51,494 bases of DNA from Seonamhaeicola sediminis. GTDB lineage: Bacteria > Bacteroidota > Bacteroidia > Flavobacteriales > Flavobacteriaceae. This document shows positions 38,680 to 51,340 of the stretch, piece by piece (positions within the stretch are counted from its first letter, which is position 1; every line of letters starts with the position of its first letter). Position numbers and translations under genes: made by a program. The notes under the pieces are model-generated. The model saw only the letters and a program-made list of their open reading frames with translations. It was not told where the DNA came from and searched no databases. The stretch is from positions 1 through 51,494 of the forward strand of contig NZ_SMZJ02000013.1 of NCBI RefSeq assembly GCF_004358095.2, in the 5' to 3' direction.

Positions 38680-39123
38680 CTATACCTTTTTAATCACATT
38701 GGTAACAATACCCCAAATAACAAAGCTGTTTTCTGATGTTACTTTAATTACAGGATAATCTGGGTTTTCTGGCTGTAGCCAAACTTCATTGTTTTGAACT
38801 TTTAGTCTTTTTACGGTAAACTCACCATCTAAAAAGCATACAGCAATTTTATTGTTTTCAGGTTCAAGGCTTCTATCTATTACCAACAAATCATGATCAT
38901 CCAACCCTGCTCCAATCATAGATTGTCCACTTACACGAGCAAAAAATGTAGCTTCTTTATTTTTAATAAGTTCTCTGTCTAATGACAACCGCTGTTCTTT
39001 AAAATCTTCGGCAGGAGACGGGAATCCTGCTGAAATTCCGGCATCGAAAAATAAAGCTCCAAGTGAGTCGTTTGCGTCCTCGGGCGTAAAAAATGTTAAG
39101 TTTTCAGATTTGTGTAGTATCAT
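38680..39123 (-). CDS. umuD: UmuD-like S24 self-cleaving protease
   Basis: 147 residues of the LexA/UmuD family. A likely cleavage site A32-G33 (SAG) and the Ser-Lys dyad Ser68 (GQSMIGAG) and Lys105 (FTVKRLKV) are intact. The processed form is expected to join UmuC as the accessory subunit of translesion polymerase V. There is no DNA-binding domain, so it is not LexA. It overlaps the end of umuC by 4 nt (ATGA) and is downstream of it, the reverse of the E. coli umuDC order. Confidence 0.93.
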   Translation of the reverse strand: MILHKSENLTFFTPEDANDSLGALFFDAGISAGFPSPAEDFKEQRLSLDRELIKNKEATFFARVSGQSMIGAGLDDHDLLVIDRSLEPENNKIAVCFLDGEFTVKRLKVQNNEVWLQPENPDYPVIKVTSENSFVIWGIVTNVIKKV

Positions 39124-40376
39124 TTTACTTTAATAATATCATTAATGTTTGTAGTATATCTGGGTGATAAGCGTTCTTGTCGCATTTTCCAGGTGCGTTC
39201 TAGGTCTTGATTGGCTATTTTAATTTTATAATCGCCATATTTAGTGTTTAGTTTATCGATAGATTTCATTAAAGGTTGGTGTTTGGGGTTTTCTTTTTCG
39301 AATATATTAAGCTGAAAATTGTCAGTTGGCACCAAACCAGACACTACAACACCTGCTCTTTTATATTTAATGCCCTTTTTGAAAATAGAACTTACTGCTT
39401 TAATAGCCTCATTACCAATAACCAACGATGAATTAGTAGGATATGGTAAATTAACTACGGTACTACCACGGTGTTGTTCTAAATCTTTTTTATGCCTATC
39501 ACTGCTTAGCATCACATAAATAACATAACAGCTTGAGCCTTGTTTGCGTAATTTTTCAGCGCAATTTGAAGCAAAAGTTGAAATGCGTTCTTTTATATAA
39601 TTTAAATCATCATAGGTATAATCAAAACTACGCGTGGTGGCAATAGCCCGTTTGGTTTTTATTTCGTCTAGCTTTAATGTTGGAATACCTTCCAAATCTT
39701 TTTTTAGTTTAAAACCTGTTGTACCAAAGCTTTTTCGTACCCAGGTGTCCGATAGGTTTACAAAATCAATGGCCTTCACGCACCCCCTAGCTTTTAAACG
39801 TTTTTGTAATCCTCTGCCAATACCCCAAACATCTTCCAATTTAATCCATTGTAAAGCTTTCAGGCGCTTTTCTTCAGAATCAATCACATAAACCCCTTTT
39901 GTTTCTTTCGGAAATTTACGTGCTATTTTATTGGCTACTTTACTAAGCGCTTTAGTAGGAGCAATACCAACACAGGTAGGTATCCCAGTCCATTTTAAAA
40001 TACGTTGTCGCATTAGGATTCCGTAGTCATCAAAATTAAGATAATCAAGGCCTTTAAATGCAACAAAAGCTTCATCAATACTATACACTTCAACGTCAGG
40101 TGTGAATTGTTCTAGTATTTTCATCACCCGATTGCTCATATCTCCGTAGAGCGGGTAATTAGAAGAAAGCACATAAATATTGTTTGCCTTACAGAAACTG
40201 TCCCATTTAAAAATAGGTGCTCCCATAGGTAAATTTAGTGCTTTAGCTTCGTCACTTCGTGAGATAACACAGCCGTCGTTATTTGAAAGAATAGCGACAG
40301 GTTTTCCTTGTAAATTAGGGTTAAATACACGTTCGCAAGAAGCATAGAAATTATTACAATCTACTAGTGCAAACAT
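39120..40376 (-). CDS. umuC: DNA polymerase V subunit UmuC (Y-family)
   Basis: A 418-residue error-prone translesion polymerase. The catalytic carboxylates are visible: D6 in FALVDCNNFYASCERVF, and D101/E102 in VYSIDEAFVAF. The helix-hairpin-helix region VWGIGRGLQKRLKARG is near 184-199 and the little-finger domain is C-terminal. Length matches UmuC. The minus-strand promoter has TATCTTTA (40383-40390), almost touching the start, so the leader is very short. No LexA site could be named. Confidence 0.95.
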   Translation of the reverse strand: MFALVDCNNFYASCERVFNPNLQGKPVAILSNNDGCVISRSDEAKALNLPMGAPIFKWDSFCKANNIYVLSSNYPLYGDMSNRVMKILEQFTPDVEVYSIDEAFVAFKGLDYLNFDDYGILMRQRILKWTGIPTCVGIAPTKALSKVANKIARKFPKETKGVYVIDSEEKRLKALQWIKLEDVWGIGRGLQKRLKARGCVKAIDFVNLSDTWVRKSFGTTGFKLKKDLEGIPTLKLDEIKTKRAIATTRSFDYTYDDLNYIKERISTFASNCAEKLRKQGSSCYVIYVMLSSDRHKKDLEQHRGSTVVNLPYPTNSSLVIGNEAIKAVSSIFKKGIKYKRAGVVVSGLVPTDNFQLNIFEKENPKHQPLMKSIDKLNTKYGDYKIKIANQDLERTWKMRQERLSPRYTTNINDIIKVK

Positions 40377-41907: not shown

Positions 41908-41988
41908 TTAACATTAAAGTAACCTAAAAATGAAATAGCATTAACAATTTAGTAACATTAAAAACTGGATTATATCGGTTCTTTGCAG
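41908..41988 (+). promoter_or_regulatory. 11-bp-phased TAAC array and TTCTTTGCAG promoter (candidate PhoB-type)
   Basis: Tetramers TAAC at 41909, 41920, 41942 and 41953, with TGAA at 41931, give five units at exactly 11-bp steps. TTCTTTGCAG begins at 41979, 26 bp after the start of the last unit, and acts as a -7-like element 21 bp before the ATG. 11-bp direct repeats are the known layout of Pho boxes in E. coli and cyanobacteria. Assignment to PhoB is inference. Confidence 0.7.
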
Positions 41989-42008
41989 AAATAATTATCC
42001 GTTTTAAA

Positions 42009-42404
42009 ATGAAACAACTAATAGTATTATTTTTCATCCTTTTTTCAGCAAGCTTGTTTGCCCAAAATACAGGTTTAGTTGTTGGAAAGATATTGGATAA
42101 AGAAATGGATAACACTCCTTTAGCATTTGCAAATGTTTCTGTTAAAGGAAGCTCATTAAAAGCTACTTCTGACTTCTCGGGCATGTTTCTTCTAGAAAAC
42201 TTACAAGACGGAGAATATACCTTGGTTTGTAATTTTCCAGGGTATGAACCTAAGGAGATTAATATTGTAGTTGATTCTGCTGAACCCACCGAAATTAAGT
42301 TAGCTTTAGGTGCTTTTATGTTACCATCTCAAATGGAAACTGCCTCAATTGAGAGCCCTTCTGAAAAGAAAGCGCTTAAGCAAACCACTACTTCCCTAAA
42401 TTAA
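42009..42404 (+). CDS. Stand-alone carboxypeptidase-regulatory-like secreted protein
   Basis: 131 residues. A signal peptide at about 1-19 (SLFAQ) is followed by one CarboxypepD_reg-like beta domain at about 22-98 (VVGKILDKEMDNTPLAFANVSVKG, then SDFSGMFLLENLQDGEYTLVCNFPGY) and a polar tail. It strongly resembles the N-terminal extension of the TonB receptor at 44085 (AGNILDGEYNNEPMAFANVIVKG), yet has no plug or barrel. It has its own phased-repeat promoter and a terminator, so it is not a broken receptor piece read by accident. A partner role for that receptor is plausible. Confidence 0.8.
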   Translation: MKQLIVLFFILFSASLFAQNTGLVVGKILDKEMDNTPLAFANVSVKGSSLKATSDFSGMFLLENLQDGEYTLVCNFPGYEPKEINIVVDSAEPTEIKLALGAFMLPSQMETASIESPSEKKALKQTTTSLN

Positions 42405-42433
42405 GTTTAGTTTTTCCTAAATCAAATCATAGC

Positions 42434-42464
42434 ACTTTTTGGCAGTAACTAGCCAAAAAGTTTC
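42434..42464 (+). terminator. Terminator-like hairpin after the CarboxypepD-like gene
   Basis: ACTTTTTGGC (42434-42443) and GCCAAAAAGT (42452-42461) form a perfect 10-bp stem, followed by TTTC. Confidence 0.65.
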
Positions 42465-42556
42465 TATCCTCTAACTAGATGTTAAAAATTATTCGTTTTA
42501 AGAATATTTTTAATGTTAAGAAATTGTTTAGAACAGATTACATGAACTCTCATTTC

Positions 42557-42637
42557 GTAACGTTAACATAACCCTTTTATTACTGTACTTTAATCTCTAG
42601 ATAACACGGTATTTACATAATGTGCATTTCTTTGCAG
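42557..42637 (+). promoter_or_regulatory. 11-bp-phased TAAC array and TTCTTTGCAG promoter (candidate PhoB-type)
   Basis: TAAC at 42558 and 42569, TTAC at 42580, TAAT at 42591, TAAC at 42602: five units at exact 11-bp steps. TTCTTTGCAG begins at 42628, again exactly 26 bp after the start of the last unit, as at 41908-41988. It drives the lipoprotein and probably the TonB receptor. Confidence 0.7.
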
Positions 42638-42675
42638 CATAAAATTGAAAAAAGAATTATCTAAAATTTAATACA

Positions 42676-44010
42676 ATGAAAAAAATATTTTTAACACTTT
42701 TAGTTGCATCTACTTTAGTATTTACAGGATGTTTTAAAGATGATGACACACCTATTATAATAGAAGAAATTACTATTATAAATGAAGGAGGAGGAAACAC
42801 TCCAACAGGCACACCTGTGGTTGTAAAAGCAGGAGGTATTGCCTTAGATGAAACTTGGACAAGTGATAATATTTACGAATTAGACAGAAGAGTTGTAGTA
42901 CAAGATGGTGTTACTTTAACCATAGAGGCTGGTACTATAATTAAAGGTAGAGCTGGAACTGGATCTTTAGCATCTGCATTGATTGTTGCAAGAGGCGGAA
43001 AAATAAATGCTGTTGGTACAGCGGCAGCTCCAATTATTTTCACTTCTACAAGTGATAATATTGATGCTGGAGAAACTGCAGGTACTAACCTAAACCAAGA
43101 TAACAGAGGTCTTTGGGGCGGTTTAATCATTCTTGGTAATGCGCCTTGTTCTTTAAAAGGAGATTTAGAAGAAGCTCAAATAGAAGGAATACCTGCTGAT
43201 GACACTTTCGGTTTATATGGAGGTAACGATGCTGCTGATAATTCTGGTAGATTAGAATATGTTTCTATTCGTCATGGAGGTGCTTTAATTGGTGAAGGTA
43301 ACGAAATCAATGGTTTAACACTGGGTGGAGTTGGTTCTGGCACCGTTATAAACAACGTTGAAGTTGTTGCCAACGTAGATGATGGTATCGAGTTTTTTGG
43401 TGGAACTGTTAATGCTTCTAACTTATTAGTTTGGGCACAAGGAGATGATGCTATCGATATCGATCAAGCTTACTCTGGTACCATTGATAACGCTGTGGTT
43501 GTTTTAGGCTCAGCTTCAGACCATGCTTTTGAAATTGATGGTCCAGAAGGAAGTACTCCAAACGGAAGTGAAGGTTCATTTACATTAACTAATGCTACTA
43601 TTATTGGTAATGCCGACACAAGTAACGGTGAGTATGCTGACTACAGAAGTAAAGCAAGAGGTACTACTACCAATATTTTTGCCAAAGGTTTTCCAGCAGG
43701 TAAAGATGTAGAGTTAGATAATAATGGTGTATCTCAAAACTTCCTTGATGGATTAATAACTTTTGCTAACTGGCAAATTGTAGGTTTTGATAACAGCATT
43801 TTTGTTGAAAAAGTAGGTTGTGCTCAAAACTGTGATGATACAGATGAAGGTAATGATATTGATGAAGAGAAAATTATCTTAAACCCAGACTTTACTACAA
43901 GAGCAGCAGCATGGGCTACTCAAGTAAACGACGGTGCACAAACTGTGGGTGCAAATACCACAAACCTTAGCTGGACATATGCTAATGCCGCTGGAGGTTT
44001 AGGCTTCTAA
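42676..44010 (+). CDS. Surface/periplasmic lipoprotein with parallel beta-helix-like repeats
   Basis: 444 residues. Lipobox with Cys19 (LVFTGC), an acidic head (FKDDD), then repeats of short strands broken by turns such as GVTLTIEAGTIIKG, RLEYVSIRHGG and NNVEVVANVDDGIEFFGGTVN, typical of right-handed beta-helix folds. The strongly acidic, Gly/Asn-rich character suits an extracellular lipoprotein. It sits directly before a TonB receptor and under the phased-repeat promoter, so it may be the receptor's surface partner, in the place SusD takes beside SusC. It is not SusD-like in sequence. Confidence 0.8.
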   Translation: MKKIFLTLLVASTLVFTGCFKDDDTPIIIEEITIINEGGGNTPTGTPVVVKAGGIALDETWTSDNIYELDRRVVVQDGVTLTIEAGTIIKGRAGTGSLASALIVARGGKINAVGTAAAPIIFTSTSDNIDAGETAGTNLNQDNRGLWGGLIILGNAPCSLKGDLEEAQIEGIPADDTFGLYGGNDAADNSGRLEYVSIRHGGALIGEGNEINGLTLGGVGSGTVINNVEVVANVDDGIEFFGGTVNASNLLVWAQGDDAIDIDQAYSGTIDNAVVVLGSASDHAFEIDGPEGSTPNGSEGSFTLTNATIIGNADTSNGEYADYRSKARGTTTNIFAKGFPAGKDVELDNNGVSQNFLDGLITFANWQIVGFDNSIFVEKVGCAQNCDDTDEGNDIDEEKIILNPDFTTRAAAWATQVNDGAQTVGANTTNLSWTYANAAGGLGF

Positions 44011-44084: not shown

Positions 44085-46919
44085 ATGAAAAATATTTATG
44101 TACTTCTCTTACTATTATTTGGTTCTGTTTTAGCAGCGTCCTCTCAAACTGGAACCCTTGCTGGAAATATCCTTGATGGCGAGTACAACAACGAGCCCAT
44201 GGCCTTTGCCAACGTAATAGTAAAAGGAACAACTATTGGTACAACATCAGATTTTGATGGAAAGTACCAATTAGATTTAGATGCTGGTACTTACACCATT
44301 ATTTTCTCATTTGTAGGTTATCAAACCAAAGAAATTAGTGGGGTAGTTATAAAAAATGGTCAGGTTATAGATTTAGATGTTACCTTAACATCAAACTCAT
44401 TAGATGAAGTTGTTATTACAACCAGCATTAAACGAAACACTGAAAGTGCTGTACTAGACATTCAAAAGAAGTCTGCTACACTTTTAGATGGGTTATCTGC
44501 TCAAAGCATAAAGTCCAGTGGAGCCAGTAATTTAGCTAGTGCTGTAAAAAGCGTTCCCGGAGTTTCTGTTGTTGGTGGCAAATATGTGTACGTTAGAGGT
44601 TTAGGAGACCGCTATACAAAATCTACCTTAAACGGTGTGGATATTCCAGGTTTAGACCCTGATAGAAATACCATACAGATGGATATTTTCCCTACTAATA
44701 TTTTAGATAATATTATAGTGGTAAAATCGGCAGCAGCTGAGTATCCAGCAGATTTTACGGGAGGTGTTGTAGATATTGTTACTAAAGATTTTCCAACAAA
44801 ATTTGAGGCTTCAATTTCCCTAGGAACGGGCTACAACCCCGATATGCATTTTAATGATAACTTTCTTATTGGAACTGGAAGCGATACTGATTTTTGGGGA
44901 TATGATGATGGTACCAGAAACTTACAAATAAATAGATATCAGCCTGTACCTGGAAGATTTGAAAACCGTGGACTTTTAACCTCTTTAACCGGACGTTTTG
45001 ATGGCGAGCTAAGAGCTAAACAGCAAACAAGTAATCCTAATTTTGATTTCGGATTTACGCTAGGTAATCAATTTGAAGTTGGCGATGATAAGTTTGGTTA
45101 TCAAGCTTCATTCTCCTACAAAAACTCAACGACTTTTTACGAAAACCGCGTTGATGGCGCGTTCTCTATAGATGCTAATAATCCGTCTAATACAGAACTT
45201 GTAATAGACAGAATTTCTGAAGGTAGTGAAGGTATTAATAACATATTGCTTAACGGTCTTGTTGGTTTAACCTATAAAAGCCAAAAATCAAAATACAAGG
45301 TTAATGTTTTACACATTCAAAATGGTGAGTCTGCAGGTGGCTTCTTTGACCAACTTATAGCTCAAGGAGGTTCTGGTTCTGGTTCTGGTTTTGAGCCCTT
45401 AACAAAAGATGCTATTACCTATACCGAACGTTCTGTTTCTAATATTTTAGTAAGTGGAAATCATTCTTTTGGAGCTCAAAACGACTGGGATTTTGATTGG
45501 AAATTTTCGCCAACATTTGCTAAAGTTTATGATAAAGACCACAGAGTAACGCCTTTACAAGAGGCTGATAACGGTGAGTTTTTTATATCACCTTCGGCTG
45601 CAACCTTCCCTATTCGTATTTGGAGATGGTTACAAGAAGAAAACTGGGCATCTAAGTTTGATTTTAGTAAAAAGTATGAATTAGGAGGCAGGCCTGCAAA
45701 AGTTAAATTTGGTGGTGGTTATACCTATAAGTTTAGAGACTTTAGTATAGACGATTATACCTTTAACAATAATGGTGCAGAAGTAGTAGATGGTAACCCA
45801 AACAATTTACTTGCACCAGAAAATATTTGGAGTAGAGATAATAGTGTTAATGGTACATTCTTAATTTCTGGAGATATTTTTAACCCAGGTGATGCCTATG
45901 AAGGCGAACAAAATATTGCAGCCACTTATATCTCAAACGAGTTTAATGTTAGCGAAAAACTAAAAGCTATTTTAGGGTTGCGTGCAGAGGTATTCACATC
46001 CTACTATACAGGAAGAAACAATACAACAGGAGATGATTTTCTGAGATTTAAAGTTCTTGATCAGCATGATTTATTTCCATCAGCCAACCTTATTTATGCT
46101 ATAGGAGAAGAATCAAACATAAGAACATCTTACTACAAAACAACCGCACGTCCTTCGTTTAAAGAAGCATCGTTTGTACAGATATTTGACCCTATTACAG
46201 ATAGATTGTTTATTGGAAACATTAACTTGAATCCTACCTATGTTGATAATTTCGATTTAAGGTTTGAGCGCTTTGGTGAAGCAGGACAAATGTTTGCTAT
46301 TAGTGGTTTTTATAAAAAGTTTGAAGACCCAATTGAAAAATCTTTCTTCGCATCAGCGCCTACACAACTTACAGTAGCTAACTTAGGAAGTGCTGATGTG
46401 TACGGTGCAGAAATTGAGTTTAGACAAAATCTTGGTTTCATTACTGATGGCTTAAGAAACCTAAAGTTCTCATTAAATGCCTCTGTAACAGAGTCTGAGT
46501 TAACCATGTCTGAAGGAGAGTTTTTCTCAAGATCTCAAAATGCCAGAACGGGAGAAACTATAGAAAGAAAACGTAACCTACAAGGACAATCGCCTTTCTT
46601 AATCAATACAAGCTTAAACTACACAAATTCTGACCTTGGATTACAAACAGGTTTATTCTTTAACATGCAAGGTAAAACTTTGGAAGTTGTTGGTTTAGGT
46701 GGTGTTCCAGATGTATTTACCTTACCTTTTGAAAGTTTAAACTTTACATTAAACAAGGCTTTTGGAGAAAACAAAAAATCTTCAATAGATATTAAAATAT
46801 CAAATATTTTGGGTGCCGAGGTAGAAAGTGTTTATCAATCCTTTCAAGCAGAGGATAGAATTTTTTCTTTAAGACAACCTGGAACAGAATTCTCTATAGG
46901 TTACTCTTATAAGTTCTAA
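44085..46919 (+). CDS. TonB-dependent receptor with CarboxypepD_reg-like domain (phosphate locus)
   Basis: 944 residues. Signal peptide at about 1-20, CarboxypepD_reg-like domain at about 23-105, plug at about 125-235 (SVVGGKYVYVRGLGDRYTKSTLNGV and TGGVVDIVTKDF), then a large beta-barrel ending in a terminal Phe (FSIGYSYKF). The position between phased-repeat promoters, a surface lipoprotein, a phosphate-porin-like gene and a PiT transporter suggests a phosphate or organophosphate substrate. Sequence alone does not show the substrate. Confidence 0.92.
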   Translation: MKNIYVLLLLLFGSVLAASSQTGTLAGNILDGEYNNEPMAFANVIVKGTTIGTTSDFDGKYQLDLDAGTYTIIFSFVGYQTKEISGVVIKNGQVIDLDVTLTSNSLDEVVITTSIKRNTESAVLDIQKKSATLLDGLSAQSIKSSGASNLASAVKSVPGVSVVGGKYVYVRGLGDRYTKSTLNGVDIPGLDPDRNTIQMDIFPTNILDNIIVVKSAAAEYPADFTGGVVDIVTKDFPTKFEASISLGTGYNPDMHFNDNFLIGTGSDTDFWGYDDGTRNLQINRYQPVPGRFENRGLLTSLTGRFDGELRAKQQTSNPNFDFGFTLGNQFEVGDDKFGYQASFSYKNSTTFYENRVDGAFSIDANNPSNTELVIDRISEGSEGINNILLNGLVGLTYKSQKSKYKVNVLHIQNGESAGGFFDQLIAQGGSGSGSGFEPLTKDAITYTERSVSNILVSGNHSFGAQNDWDFDWKFSPTFAKVYDKDHRVTPLQEADNGEFFISPSAATFPIRIWRWLQEENWASKFDFSKKYELGGRPAKVKFGGGYTYKFRDFSIDDYTFNNNGAEVVDGNPNNLLAPENIWSRDNSVNGTFLISGDIFNPGDAYEGEQNIAATYISNEFNVSEKLKAILGLRAEVFTSYYTGRNNTTGDDFLRFKVLDQHDLFPSANLIYAIGEESNIRTSYYKTTARPSFKEASFVQIFDPITDRLFIGNINLNPTYVDNFDLRFERFGEAGQMFAISGFYKKFEDPIEKSFFASAPTQLTVANLGSADVYGAEIEFRQNLGFITDGLRNLKFSLNASVTESELTMSEGEFFSRSQNARTGETIERKRNLQGQSPFLINTSLNYTNSDLGLQTGLFFNMQGKTLEVVGLGGVPDVFTLPFESLNFTLNKAFGENKKSSIDIKISNILGAEVESVYQSFQAEDRIFSLRQPGTEFSIGYSYKF

Positions 46920-47336: not shown

Positions 47337-47363
47337 AACTGTGGGGTTTTAGTAATTATATAT

Positions 47364-47417
47364 CAAATATACAAATTGCTTAACCTTAAAACAACACTAC
47401 CTTAACATTAACTTAAC
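47364..47417. promoter_or_regulatory. Phased TAAC array beside a minus-strand -7 box
   Basis: TAAC at 47381, CAAC at 47392, TAAC at 47403 and 47414 again step by 11 bp. On the minus strand a TATATTTG -7 box (47371-47364) lies right next to it, before the small secreted-protein gene. The repeats are oriented opposite to that gene, so which transcript they serve is open. Confidence 0.5.
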
Positions 47418-47537
47418 ACTAAAAATGTAATAACTTGATTTTTAATTACTTATAACTATAAAAAACCTAAAAACTTAACATTGGAAATATTAATAATTAA
47501 TTAATATTCACGTTACGTTAAGATTAACTGCAACCTT

Positions 47538-47545
47538 GATATTTG
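47538..47545 (+). promoter_or_regulatory. -7-like box of the candidate small RNA
   Basis: GATATTTG (one mismatch to TAnnTTTG) followed by CC. A TAAC at 47525 and TTAC/TTAA steps at 47513 and 47524 lie just upstream, weaker than the other arrays. Confidence 0.4.
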
Positions 47546-47662: not shown

Positions 47663-47710
47663 TTAATCATTTGGAAACATTAAGTTAACATTGGTTTATG
47701 TTCTTTGCAG
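47663..47710 (+). promoter_or_regulatory. Phased repeat promoter of the porin-pit unit
   Basis: TAAT at 47664, AAAC at 47675 and TAAC at 47686 step by 11 bp. TTCTTTGCAG starts at 47701, which is 26 bp after 47675 and 15 bp after 47686. It keeps the same phase as the two upstream promoters, though units are fewer and less exact. Confidence 0.6.
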
Positions 47711-47732
47711 CGACAAAAAACTAATAAATACA

Positions 47733-48962
47733 ATGAAACTTAAAATTACGCTTGTAGCAGTTGCTTTATTTGCTATTACCTTTACATTTGGTCAAGAAAT
47801 TAGTGATACTTCTTTCGGAAAAGGTCTCATAAACTTTACAGCTAAAGACAGTTCTTTTAGCATAAAATTCGCGCCTAGATTTCAAATGCGCTATATCTCC
47901 TCTTGGGACCATGATGGCGATCAATATGGTTCTCCAGAGCATAATTTTATCATAAGACGAGCTCGATTGAAATTTGATGGTTTTGCTTATAGTCCTAAAT
48001 TAAAATACAAAATAGAGTTGGGGCTTTCTAATAGAGACCTTTCAGGTGGAAATCAATTTACTCGTAACACCCCTCGATATATCTTAGATGCTGTATTAAT
48101 GTGGCATTTTGCAAAAAATTGGGAATTATGGGCGGGACAGACTAAATTACCTGGAAACGTAGAACGTGTTATATCTTCAGGTGACCTTCAATTGGTAGAT
48201 CGATCTTTACTTAATAGTCGTTTTACTTTAGATCGGGATATAGGACTTCAACTACGTCATAAGTTTTATTTAGGTAGTGATTTTTTAGTTCGTGAAAAAT
48301 TGGCTCTTTCGCAAGGTGAAGGTAGAAACGTAACCGAAGGTAATGAAGGAGGTTTGCAATATACGGCACGTTTGGAATTATTACCATTCGGGGCATTTCA
48401 ATCTAAAGGTGATTATAAGGGATCTGACTTAAAAAGAGAAGAAAAGCCAAAATTATCATTAACATTTACGTATAACTTTAACGAAAATGCCGTTAGAGAA
48501 AGAGGGTTTGCTGGAAATTATATGTTTAATAATGATGGTAACTCCTTATACGAAACAGACCAAACTACCATTTTCGCAGATGCGATGTTCAAATATAATG
48601 GGTTCTCATTTATGGGAGAATATGCAAAAAGAACAGCAGACCAAGAAGTAGCTACAAACACAGATGGAACTTTAGCAACTGATGAAGATGGAAACCCAAC
48701 TGGAGATATTGTCTTAACAGGTAATGCTTTGAACTTACAAGCAGGATATTTATTTAAAAACAATATTGAAATAGCAGCTAGATATACGGGTTTAGATTAT
48801 GAAGCCGTTACAAATGCGCTTCCGGTAAAACAGTATACTTTAGGTTTAAATAAGTTCATACACGGACACAAGCTAAAAGTGCAGAGTGATATCAGTTACA
48901 CATCTGTAGATGGAAACGACGATAATATTAGGTTTAGATTAGGATTTGATTTCCATTTCTAA
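47733..48962 (+). CDS. Phosphate-selective porin-like outer-membrane protein (OprO/OprP family)
   Basis: About 409 residues from the ATG at 47733. A longer frame to 47691 would place the promoter element inside the coding region and spoil the signal peptide, so it is rejected. The signal peptide ends FTFGQE. The mature part is a 16-strand-type barrel with family features such as KFAPRFQMRYISSWDHDGD, FIIRRARLKFDGFAYSPKLKYK and LWAGQTKLPGNVERVISSGDLQLVDR. It ends in aromatic FDFHF. It is 38 bp before the PiT transporter gene, a natural outer/inner membrane pair for phosphate. Confidence 0.88.
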   Translation: MKLKITLVAVALFAITFTFGQEISDTSFGKGLINFTAKDSSFSIKFAPRFQMRYISSWDHDGDQYGSPEHNFIIRRARLKFDGFAYSPKLKYKIELGLSNRDLSGGNQFTRNTPRYILDAVLMWHFAKNWELWAGQTKLPGNVERVISSGDLQLVDRSLLNSRFTLDRDIGLQLRHKFYLGSDFLVREKLALSQGEGRNVTEGNEGGLQYTARLELLPFGAFQSKGDYKGSDLKREEKPKLSLTFTYNFNENAVRERGFAGNYMFNNDGNSLYETDQTTIFADAMFKYNGFSFMGEYAKRTADQEVATNTDGTLATDEDGNPTGDIVLTGNALNLQAGYLFKNNIEIAARYTGLDYEAVTNALPVKQYTLGLNKFIHGHKLKVQSDISYTSVDGNDDNIRFRLGFDFHF

Positions 48963-49000
48963 AAAATAACGATAACATAACAATATAATCAAGAATAGTC

Positions 49001-51340
49001 ATGATATTTGCAGATATACTACAATTAAACACAATGGATAATATTTATTTGTACATGTTAATTGCCCTAACAATTTTGGCAGTTGCAGATATTGTTGTTG
49101 GCGTTAGTAATGATGCCATTAACTTCTTAAACTCGGCTATTGGTTCTAAAGCACTTTCCTTAAGAACCATCATGATTGTTGCTAGTTTGGGTATTTTTAT
49201 TGGAGCCGTTTATTCAAGTGGACTCATGGAGGTAGCTAGAAAGGGGATTTTTGTTCCAGCACAATTTAGCTTTCATGAAATCATGCTCATTTTTATGACG
49301 GTGATGATTACAGATATTCTTCTCTTAGATTTCTTTAACACACTAGGCCTACCAACCTCTACAACAGTTTCTATTGTATTTAACCTCTTAGGAGCTGCCG
49401 TAATAATGGCTATTATTAAAGTAGGCGCATCAGACACACAAACCTTTGCTGATTTAGGTACTTATATAAATACTAAAAAGGCTATAGAAATTATAAGTGG
49501 TATACTACTCTCTGTAGTTATAGCCTTTAGTATTGGTGCTATTGTGCAGTGGTTTTCTCGTTTAATTTTTACATTTCATTATAATGAAAAAATCAAAAAT
49601 TTTGGAGGCGTTTTTGGTGGTTTAGCACTTACAGCAATCCTTTATTTCATTTTCATGAAAGGACTTAAAGGAACACCGTATTATAGTGATATGAAAGGAA
49701 TAATTGAAGGAAATGAATTATATATCATACTCGGAGGTTTTGCTATTTTCACTTTACTATCTTTTGTTTTTCAAAAAATAACTCAAAAAAGTATTTTACT
49801 AATAGTTATTGCTGTTGGAACTTTTGGTTTAGCCTTGGCTTTTTCTGGGAATGATTTAGTAAATTTTATTGGAGTACCTATGGCTGCATACCATTCTTAT
49901 GAAGCTTGGTCTGTTTCTGGTATTGCCGCTACAGAGTTCACTATGGGCGTTCTTGACAAAAAAATGCCAGCAGAACCATTTTTGTTGTTTATTGCAGGAG
50001 GAATTATGGTTATTACTTTATGGTTCTCGAAAAAAGCAAAAACTGTTGCCGAAACAGAAATTAGTTTATCCCGTCAGAGTGAAACCCACGAAAAGTTTAA
50101 ACCAAACCTACTCTCAAGAAGTATTGTTAAAGGGACCACGGCATTGTCAAATGCATTAACTGCAATCATCCCTAAATCAACTCAAGAAAAAGTAAACGCT
50201 AGTTTCCAGAAGCCAGATTCTACTATAATTACCAAAGATCAAAGTATAGATGCACCTGCTTTTGATATGATTAGAGCATCTGTAAACTTAATGGTTGCTG
50301 GAGTTCTAATTTCTATTGCAACCACTATGAAGTTACCATTGTCAACGACTTATGTAACTTTTATGGTGGCTATGGGAACTTCATTAGCGGATAGGGCTTG
50401 GGGTGCTGAAAGTGCTGTGTACAGAGTTGCCGGTGTACTAAACGTTATAGGAGGATGGTTTTTAACAGCGCTTGGTGCCTTTACTGGAGCAGGTATAGTT
50501 GTATTCTTAATCAATTGGCATCCAGCTGTAATGACTCCCATATTGTTGTTGCTCACAGTTATTTTATTAGTAAGAAATTATCTTTCCCACAAAAGAAAGT
50601 CTTCTCTTTCTAAAGGCGAGGATAGTCTTAAAAGCGCTGAAAGCAGCTCCGTTCAGGGTGTTATCCATGAGAGTGCAACTAATATAGCTAATGTTGTTAA
50701 ACGTGGAAATAAAATTTACTCTAATGCTATTAATGGTTTAGCAAAACAAGACTTATCGTCACTTAAAAAGAACCAAAAACAAATCACAAAATTATCTCTT
50801 GAAGTTGATGAATTAAGAGATAATATCTTCTACTTTATTAAAAATTTAGACGAATCTAGTATTGGCGCAAGTAATTTCTATATTAATATTTTAGGATACT
50901 TGCAGGACATGACACAATCATTGGAGTATATCTCCAAGACAAGTCATAAGCACGTAAATAATAACCATAAAAAACTAAAATTCAACCAAATTAAAGAATT
51001 AAAAGAGGTTGATGAGGCTATTGAACAATTATTTTTTGACATTAAAAATGCTTTTGATTCACGTTCGTTTGAACAAATAGGAAATATAATTAGCAGAGAG
51101 GAAAATGTAGCATCTATTGTATCGGATAAAATTCAAAAACAAGTAGAACGTACACGTAAAGAGGAATCAAGTCCTAAGAATACTACGCTTTATTTTGGAC
51201 TGCTTTTAGAAACTAAAGATTTATTAAAGGCCACCATGAATCTGTTAGAAGAGTATCACAATGCTCATGATGCGTCTGTTGAACCAGCCAAAATACCGGA
51301 TAACACCATTATTTCAACTGAATTATTGGAAGAGGAATGA
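49001..51340 (+). CDS. PiT family inorganic phosphate transporter with C-terminal PhoU-like domain
   Basis: 779 residues. The PiT signature occurs twice: VSNDAINFLNSAIGSKALS near 35-53, and in the second half the variant LAFSGNDLVNFIGVPMAAY near 279-297; GLPTSTTVSIVFNLLGAA and KLPLSTTYVTFMVAMGTS are the matching repeats. About ten to twelve membrane helices occupy residues 15-530. From about 550 to 750 follows a soluble, fully helical domain of PhoU/DUF47 type (VKRGNKIYSNAINGLAKQDL onward), so transporter and regulator-like domain are fused. Start may be M1 or M12. It follows the porin gene by 38 bp. Confidence 0.9.
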   Translation: MIFADILQLNTMDNIYLYMLIALTILAVADIVVGVSNDAINFLNSAIGSKALSLRTIMIVASLGIFIGAVYSSGLMEVARKGIFVPAQFSFHEIMLIFMTVMITDILLLDFFNTLGLPTSTTVSIVFNLLGAAVIMAIIKVGASDTQTFADLGTYINTKKAIEIISGILLSVVIAFSIGAIVQWFSRLIFTFHYNEKIKNFGGVFGGLALTAILYFIFMKGLKGTPYYSDMKGIIEGNELYIILGGFAIFTLLSFVFQKITQKSILLIVIAVGTFGLALAFSGNDLVNFIGVPMAAYHSYEAWSVSGIAATEFTMGVLDKKMPAEPFLLFIAGGIMVITLWFSKKAKTVAETEISLSRQSETHEKFKPNLLSRSIVKGTTALSNALTAIIPKSTQEKVNASFQKPDSTIITKDQSIDAPAFDMIRASVNLMVAGVLISIATTMKLPLSTTYVTFMVAMGTSLADRAWGAESAVYRVAGVLNVIGGWFLTALGAFTGAGIVVFLINWHPAVMTPILLLLTVILLVRNYLSHKRKSSLSKGEDSLKSAESSSVQGVIHESATNIANVVKRGNKIYSNAINGLAKQDLSSLKKNQKQITKLSLEVDELRDNIFYFIKNLDESSIGASNFYINILGYLQDMTQSLEYISKTSHKHVNNNHKKLKFNQIKELKEVDEAIEQLFFDIKNAFDSRSFEQIGNIISREENVASIVSDKIQKQVERTRKEESSPKNTTLYFGLLLETKDLLKATMNLLEEYHNAHDASVEPAKIPDNTIISTELLEEE

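Follow-up and report, generated by a model that had tools for sequence, protein, structure and literature searches.

Phased TAAC arrays upstream of phosphate-type genes: a probable PhoB-dependent Pho box joined to a SigA-type promoter in Bacteroidota

Introduction

Bacteroidota are prominent in phosphorus turnover in marine and rhizosphere settings. In a stretch of 51,494 nucleotides from Seonamhaeicola sediminis (contig NZ_SMZJ02000013.1, hereafter the window), two promoters of one gene cluster each carry a tandem array of TAAC units in 11-bp steps ahead of the 10-mer TTCTTTGCAG. This raises the question of whether the arrays are sites of a phosphate regulator that could define a Pho box for the phylum, or whether another regulator, the shape of AT-rich DNA or common descent accounts for them.

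Results and Discussion

Two promoters in the window share one register

The features of the cluster are collected in Table 1. Re-reading of the sequence confirmed every position of the units and of TTCTTTGCAG in the preliminary description, as well as the identical 26-bp offset from the fifth unit, the last one noted there, to TTCTTTGCAG (41953 to 41979 in promoter A, 42602 to 42628 in promoter B). The 11-bp steps hold too, but five units is an undercount, with a sixth unit, TTAC at 42613, present in array B. The TTTG within TTCTTTGCAG lies at 41982 in promoter A and at 42631 in promoter B, and the ladder of units is placed at -73, -62, -51, -40, -29 and -18 from it. Promoter B (42558-42638) reads TAAC TAAC TTAC TAAT TAAC TTAC along this ladder, with six in-phase units at 11-bp steps, three of them exact TAAC, and 18 bp between the start of unit 6 and TTTG. 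Promoter A (41909-41989) reads TAAC TAAC TGAA TAAC TAAC ACTG in the same register and has four good units; the in-phase tetramer that follows its array at 41964, ACTG, does not count as a unit. By analogy with mapped promoters, transcription would start near 41990 and 42639, respectively.

Table 1. Arrays, promoter elements and genes of the phosphate-type cluster in the window
Feature	Position	Strand	Details
Array A	41909..41956	+	TAAC at 41909, 41920, 41942, 41953; TGAA (degenerate) at 41931; period 11 bp
-7-like element, promoter A, GTTCTTTG	41978..41985	+	consensus TAnnTTTG; box position as described in PMC9723704
CPD, 131-aa CarboxypepD_reg-like domain protein	42009..42404	+	
Array B	42558..42616	+	TAAC 42558, TAAC 42569, TTAC 42580, TAAT 42591, TAAC 42602, TTAC 42613
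-7-like element, promoter B, TTTCTTTG	42627..42634	+	box position as described in PMC9723704
444-aa lipoprotein-like protein	42676..44010	+	likely FII family of F. johnsoniae (Pi-depletion-induced exoprotein, as described in PMC8115612)
944-aa TonB-dependent transporter	44085..46919	+	partner of the lipoprotein
Extra phased array	47381..47417	+	TAAC CAAC TAAC TAAC; about 300 bp 5' of the porin promoter
Third promoter, before the porin	47664..47711	+	TAAT 47664, AAAC 47675, TAAC 47686, TTTGC 47704
Porin_O_P family outer-membrane porin	47733..48962	+	
Weak TAAC units directly 5' of the PiT gene	48966..49000	+	model R1 E=1.8; unconvincing on their own
PiT-type phosphate transporter (PHO4)	49001..51340	+	

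The promoter before the porin gene follows the register of promoters A and B, with TAAT, AAAC and TAAC at -40, -29 and -18 of its TTTG, two of which count as units. No promoter element could be assigned near the extra array at 47381. This array lies in TTAAC-dense intergenic DNA (47340-47540), flanked by a 115-aa MORN-like gene in divergent orientation and by the porin gene. In one related region (L144), arrays face both a similar small gene and PiT.

The signal is the complete architecture

Among the 925 TTTG sites on both strands of the window, only those of promoters A and B have at least four of six units (TAAC, TAAT or TTAC) at the fixed register. In 3 Mb of simulated intergenic-like DNA, in which successive bases follow one another at the frequencies seen in three intergenic stretches of the window, none of 22,745 TTTG sites reaches four units. 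The separate parts behave differently. Allowing one mismatch, TTCTTTGCAG occurs six times in the window against a mean of 6.7 in shuffled DNA and is not enriched; in the whole genome it has 17 exact copies, compared to four for the reversed-pattern control. The 14 copies outside the cluster fall mostly in open frames, 12 in frames of >200 codons and one in a frame of 156, with one lacking a frame of at least 150. It should be mentioned that this test is weak, given that two of the three window copies also lie inside open frames (156 and 431). TTCTTTGCAG had been described as a promoter element. Being unenriched in the window, and with 13 of 14 other copies in open frames by this weak test, it was rejected as an independent element and is better read as the TTTG half of a SigA -7 box without its TA.

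Three exact TAAC at 11-bp steps are found nowhere in the genome; both arrays are degenerate in the middle. Triples of TTAAC at the same spacing, when up to two mismatches are allowed, occur 44 times in the genome, hardly above the 38 of the control. The bare TAAC and TTAAC patterns were thus rejected as regulon finders. The signal is the complete architecture, not its separate parts.

Conservation before lipoprotein and transporter genes

The lipoprotein has a match at E<=1e-20 in 131 of 149 genomes of the family (Flavobacteriaceae). From the best 30 loci, 28 upstream regions of 250 bp were used to count pairs of TAAC by their distance, a test that needs no anchor; L060 and L074 were dropped as their start was not found. 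Pairs are concentrated at lags 11 (24), 33 (23) and 44 (22); all other lags between 4 and 45 give 0-3, and the reverse strand gives 0-1. The exception is lag 22, whose low count of five results from the weak third unit. With the ladder anchored on the best TTTG, 25 of the 28 loci reach 15 of 24 points; the anchor was picked by unit score, so that column conservation is partly by construction. The C at the fourth position is kept in 21-23 of these 25 loci at units 1, 2, 5 and 6.

In more distant Flavobacteriaceae, 19 of 20 transporter regions, taken from genera with a lipoprotein 35-45% identical, hold a ladder of at least 20 of 24 points at -73 to -18 of TTTG. In some of these regions a CPD gene with its own array stands 5' of the transporter gene. 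The architecture kept before TonB-dependent transporter or partner genes is TAAC-TAAC-(weak)-TAAY-TAAC-TTAC-n14-TTTG. A search for the exact pattern TAACn7TAACn18TAAYn7TAACn7TTACn14TTTG in one genome per species across 84,980 GTDB species gave at least 119 matches. Among the 119 matches listed, the next gene is a transporter in 86, the lipoprotein in 25 and CPD in five, that is, a transporter or partner gene in 116; the other three are without assignment.

Two alignments were made. A1 has 20 of the 28 lipoprotein loci, leaving out L053, L057, L061, L065, L075, L077, L078 and L079, in which the array is weak or absent. A2 has 51 sequences: 14 of 30 plcP-like loci (of 16 scoring at least 18.5, our own L271 and the doubtful L295 were excluded), 22 of the 119 exact matches taken at random, and 15 sites from 14 of the 20 distant regions. 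Most sequences of both alignments combine near-perfect units 1-2 and 4-5 with a degenerate unit 3, which gives a superperiod of 33 bp. The lag tests, together with the period scan described below, indicate tandem direct repeats of 11 bp on one strand. The ladders place them at a fixed distance (18 bp from unit 6 to TTTG), where they would reach over the upstream element of the core promoter, itself assigned by analogy with mapped flavobacterial promoters.

The -7 box lacks its TA

Mapped flavobacterial SigA promoters are described as having TAnnTTTG at -12 to -5 (PMC9723704). In the sites found here TTTG is present and the TA is missing, in all 119 of the listed exact matches, in which TTTG was required by the search and the TA place was unconstrained. 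The dinucleotide in that place is TT in 85, GT in 17, CA in 11 and GA in six, so that the A alone is kept in 17. The A has given way to T in 48 of the 51 sequences of A2. Measured from the putative start, units 5 and 6 fall at about -37 and -26, in the region that the -33 box occupies in an ordinary SigA promoter. The missing TA may indicate that the promoter depends on an activator.

Other members of the regulon in the genome and family

The search was extended with two models. R1 is a sequence-only model from 20 lipoprotein promoters, and its best matches in the genome outside the training set are promoter A (4e-6) and a site before the gene of a 282-aa metallophosphoesterase (3e-5). R2, trained without any sequence of this genome, gives E-values of 3.5e-14 for promoter B, 1.3e-6 for promoter A and 0.001 for the porin promoter, and its five best sites in the genome are, in order, those of promoter B, the metallophosphoesterase gene, promoter A, an antisense coding site and the porin. 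Matches that a model placed within coding frames or antisense to them (C12:61167, C23:64411) were taken as false positives.

The 282-aa protein carries PF12850/PF00149 and was taken as PlcP-like because the PlcP of Flavobacterium johnsoniae, Fjoh_4577, has pf12850. Among NCBIfam models it comes closest to UDP-2,3-diacylglucosamine diphosphatase, below cut-off, and the gene is present in 31 of 60 family genomes, fewer than expected of that core enzyme. Upstream of 30 plcP-like loci, pairs of TAAC, TTAC or TAAT at lags 11, 22, 33 and 44 number 54, 45, 42 and 33, compared to 3-19 at other lags, with no lag peak on the reverse strand. A ladder scoring at least 20 with 18 bp to TTTG is found in 12 of the 30 loci, our own among them; 14 of the 30, mostly more distant, score <18.5.

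The period scan covered 390 kb, the window and related DNA in 21 regions, 20 of them fetched around the lipoprotein gene. It gave 30 arrays of period 11, compared to 0-5 for each of nine other periods. Twenty-seven of the 30 stand 5' of a transporter, CPD, lipoprotein, porin, PiT or pstS gene, and four of these arrays are 240-360 bp from the gene. This listing of arrays with their genes replaced a first intergenic background (TAAC lag 11 = 27, others 0-9), which was discarded because the regions are themselves Pho clusters and the mask missed sites. A pstS with the same ladder and 18-bp spacing (L148) was confirmed by TIGR02136. Considering that plcP-like and pstS genes have it too, the common architecture would not be explained by the descent of one promoter.

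In six genomes of one often-sampled genus, possibly Flavobacterium, the best R2 site of each stands before a transporter-like gene (30-38% identity); further matches precede FII-like genes (L345, L352), a Porin_O_P gene (L339) and genes for secreted proteins, and some have no such gene. Upstream of phoX, for which 26 of 30 loci were usable, there is little phasing, with two TAAC pairs at lag 11 and 0-2 at other lags; counting three-variant units in the same 26 loci gives 13 at lag 11 vs 1-8.

Arrays beyond the family

R2 has a match at E<=0.001 in 33 of 119 genomes of the class, 30 of which are outside the family. Among 27 examined of the 34 other-family matches, 24 stand before phosphate-type genes. 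By similarity these are 10 lipoprotein, eight transporter, one plcP-like and one porin gene, the transporter assignments being the softest (27-37% identity in a large family, one on weak evidence). By Pfam there is one each of CarboxypepD/beta-barrel, Porin_O_P, Na/Pi cotransporter and MauG-type peroxidase; the remaining three of the 27 have no gene assignment. Across the phylum, the upstream regions of the 30 best-scoring pstS loci, many of them GC-rich, have nine TAAC pairs at lag 11, five at lag 33 and 0-2 elsewhere, and about five of the 30 loci carry an array (L312, L315, L323 and L303 among those noted, all from other classes). The clearest, L312 and L315 of another class, read TAAC TAAC TAAN TAAC TAAC, which suggests that the array may be older than the split of the families in the class.

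The array is thus common to genes of different functions: TonB-dependent transporter, lipoprotein, plcP-like phosphoesterase, porin, PiT, a pstS and Na/Pi cotransporter. The earlier idea of a general Bacteroidetes Pho box is supported by its occurrence across genera, other families and varied genes for phosphate acquisition or sparing, but does not extend clearly to phoX, which is weak, or to our own phoB, upstream of which no clear array was found. Autoregulation of this phoB through such an array was considered and set aside, with none seen upstream.

Genes of the cluster and their phosphate response

The lipoprotein-like gene adjoins the TonB-dependent transporter gene in all 20 fetched related regions. 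No Pfam or NCBIfam model matches the 444-aa protein, which likely belongs to the FII family; the assignment was made via gene neighbourhood, not by direct comparison with Fjoh_0546. From its genomic context, the transporter-lipoprotein pair is a putative phosphate-scavenging system. The genome has no match for PstS (TIGR02136) or PhoX (PF05787), and the porin, PiT and the transporter-lipoprotein pair seem to be its means of taking up phosphate. Two proteins have an OmpR/PhoB DNA-binding domain at E<=0.001. The first (locus L018) adjoins a PhoR-type kinase and a PF04101 glycosyltransferase; it best matches PhoB models, and the pair is read as PhoB and PhoR (best models PhoB and PnpS/PhoR) with both matches below curated cut-offs. 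The second best matches RprY, also below the curated cut-off. In four of the 20 related regions, phoBR stands divergently beside the transporter-lipoprotein pair. Elsewhere in the window, at 38680-40376, a Peptidase_S24 gene (UmuD/LexA-type) and an IMS-family polymerase gene (UmuC/DinB-type) with DUF4113 are same-strand neighbours.

In F. johnsoniae, a Pi-depletion cluster (PUSIV/PhoBR operon) is described as comprising a glycosyltransferase (pf04101), OprP, PhoR, PhoB, a TonB-dependent transporter and lipoprotein FII (PMC8115612), so that phoBR adjoins the transporter-lipoprotein pair there, as in the four regions above. On the log2 scale given in the text of that report, Pi depletion raises the transporter by 8.0, FII by 9.9 and PlcP by 8.6, and PhoB rises by 3 log2 (PMC8115612). 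phoX is reported among the most strongly induced genes, and a MauG-type peroxidase family is induced as well; for OprP the report describes no rise (PMC8115612). According to the same source, a shortage of phosphate, but not of nitrogen or iron, elicits a response from F. johnsoniae genes of these families (PMC8115612). The proposal that the downstream genes suit a phosphate regulon is in line with this induction of the lipoprotein and transporter families.

Proposed mechanism and alternatives

Considering the array, its register, its conservation, its gene set and the departure of the -7 box, all directly observed, we regard it as highly probable that the arrays form a Pho box that depends on PhoB and is merged with a promoter of the SigA type, serving a Pho regulon of Bacteroidota. 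At low phosphate, the PhoR kinase would phosphorylate PhoB, which would occupy the 11-bp direct repeats (core TAAC) as head-to-tail dimers, two or three of them next to each other on the same helix face. Owing to a -7 box without TA, the promoter would be nearly silent at high phosphate and would become active once RNA polymerase is brought in by the PhoB array, probably by way of region 4 of SigA. E. coli PhoB recruits RNA polymerase through sigma region 4. A more specific proposal has, in our estimate, an even chance of being correct: that Bacteroidota have their own class of phosphate-starvation promoter, a rigid PhoB-dependent platform of six sites, in which pairs 1-2 and 4-5 are spaced by 33 bp, unit 3 is weak, unit 6 is TTAC and the TA-less -7 box follows at a fixed 18 bp, the whole predating the split of the families in the class.

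Several observations count against this reading. Our own phoB lacks a clear array although PhoB is Pi-induced in F. johnsoniae; phoX is weak, 14 of 30 plcP-like loci remain below 18.5 and only about five of 30 pstS loci have an array; and OprP is described as uninduced in F. johnsoniae (PMC8115612).

The same promoters could be served by an array that is read by the RprY-like regulator of the OmpR type, or by both proteins, which we consider improbable. Apart from the PhoB-like protein, only the RprY-like one carries the DNA-binding domain in question in this genome, and OmpR-family proteins as a class read tandem repeats of 10-11 bp. In addition, the TTTAACA motif discussed below (PMC9603813) stems from a Riemerella regulator that may be the orthologue of RprY rather than of PhoB. 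The sites, however, stand on a coherent set of phosphate-type genes and lie beside phoBR in four of 20 regions, and the F. johnsoniae families are reported to answer phosphate, not nitrogen or iron limitation (PMC8115612). A further alternative dispenses with a specific protein, the phased A/T-rich tetramers acting by intrinsic curvature or as an UP-like element. The period is indeed near the helical repeat and the units are AT-rich, but curvature would hardly explain a fourth-base C kept in 21-23 of 25 loci at units 1, 2, 5 and 6, phased pairs almost confined to one strand, a fixed distance to TTTG and a specific gene set, and this explanation appears very improbable.

We give almost no weight to chance, or to the idea that these genes inherited a single AT-rich promoter without a role in phosphate control. 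It is true that the 10-mer TTCTTTGCAG and the bare TTAAC triple are unenriched, that the transporter, CPD and lipoprotein promoters could stem from duplication, and that choosing the TTTG anchor by unit score makes column conservation partly a matter of construction. The lag test is nevertheless free of any anchor, control periods give 0-5 arrays vs 30 at period 11, and a like architecture or phased arrays are found before plcP-like, pstS, porin, PiT and Na/Pi cotransporter genes.

The architecture offers a searchable sequence definition of a phosphate regulon for Bacteroidota. It tags outer-membrane transporter-lipoprotein pairs as Pho genes where expression data are lacking, for example in a genome without a PstS or PhoX match. 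The TA-less -7 box would also predict activator dependence and a tight phosphate switch in flavobacteria.

Comparison with known Pho boxes

The Bacillus subtilis PhoP box consists of TT(A/T/C)ACA repeats, with a half-site and period like those of the array described here. That tandem 11-bp repeats are the known form of PhoB and SphR sites, as noted at the outset, agrees with the boxes described for E. coli (PMC4415409) and cyanobacteria (PMC1906773). The E. coli Pho box is composed of CTGTCAT direct repeats with an 11-bp period (PMC4415409), and its promoter-proximal repeat is given as 10 bp from the -10 element (PMC1906773). The Bacteroidota array resembles it in the 11-bp tandem repeats, the short fixed distance to the promoter, the phosphate genes and the regulator family, with units 5-6 abutting the core promoter. 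In contrast, it has a TAAC half-site, six units with a weak third, and a Bacteroidota -7 box instead of a -10 element. No CTGTCAT-type half-site was seen, in that no TGTCA pair at lags 8-35 occurs in 30 pstS upstream regions of the phylum and the units in A1 and A2 are TAAC, TAAT or TTAC. The cyanobacterial SphR box, CTTAACCT in at least three repeats with 3-bp linkers, has nearly the same half-site, the 11-bp period and the number of repeats in common with the array (PMC1906773). It belongs to another phylum and promoter type, and a six-unit TTTG register is not part of the box as described there (PMC1906773).

Within the phylum, the DAP-seq motif of Riemerella anatipestifer PhoP, TTTAACA, was likened to that of ArcA (PMC9603813). 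It comes from a flavobacterium and a two-component system named after phosphate systems, and it supports the TAAC half-site (PMC9603813), although the Riemerella regulator may be the orthologue of RprY instead of PhoB. However, it is described as a single 7-mer with moxR, dnaG and the Bat operon as targets, with no 11-bp array, promoter register or phosphate gene set in that description (PMC9603813). Deletion of a Riemerella PhoPR-type system is reported to raise pstS about 8-fold (PMC5399024), the opposite of simple activation and a point against the reading proposed here. In Bacteroides fragilis, PhoB binds the pstC promoter directly, as judged by EMSA with 512 bp (PMC3547664); it places PhoB on a pst promoter within the phylum, but is described as EMSA only, with no site defined (PMC3547664). 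Putative Pho boxes near plcP in marine bacteria have been proposed by bioinformatics, as described without a Bacteroidota consensus (PMC4796936). In the literature searched, we found neither an 11-bp array nor such a register nor a Pho-box consensus for Bacteroidota. The Pho box as a kind is thus known; what is new is the array of this phylum, its six-unit register and its off-consensus -7 box.
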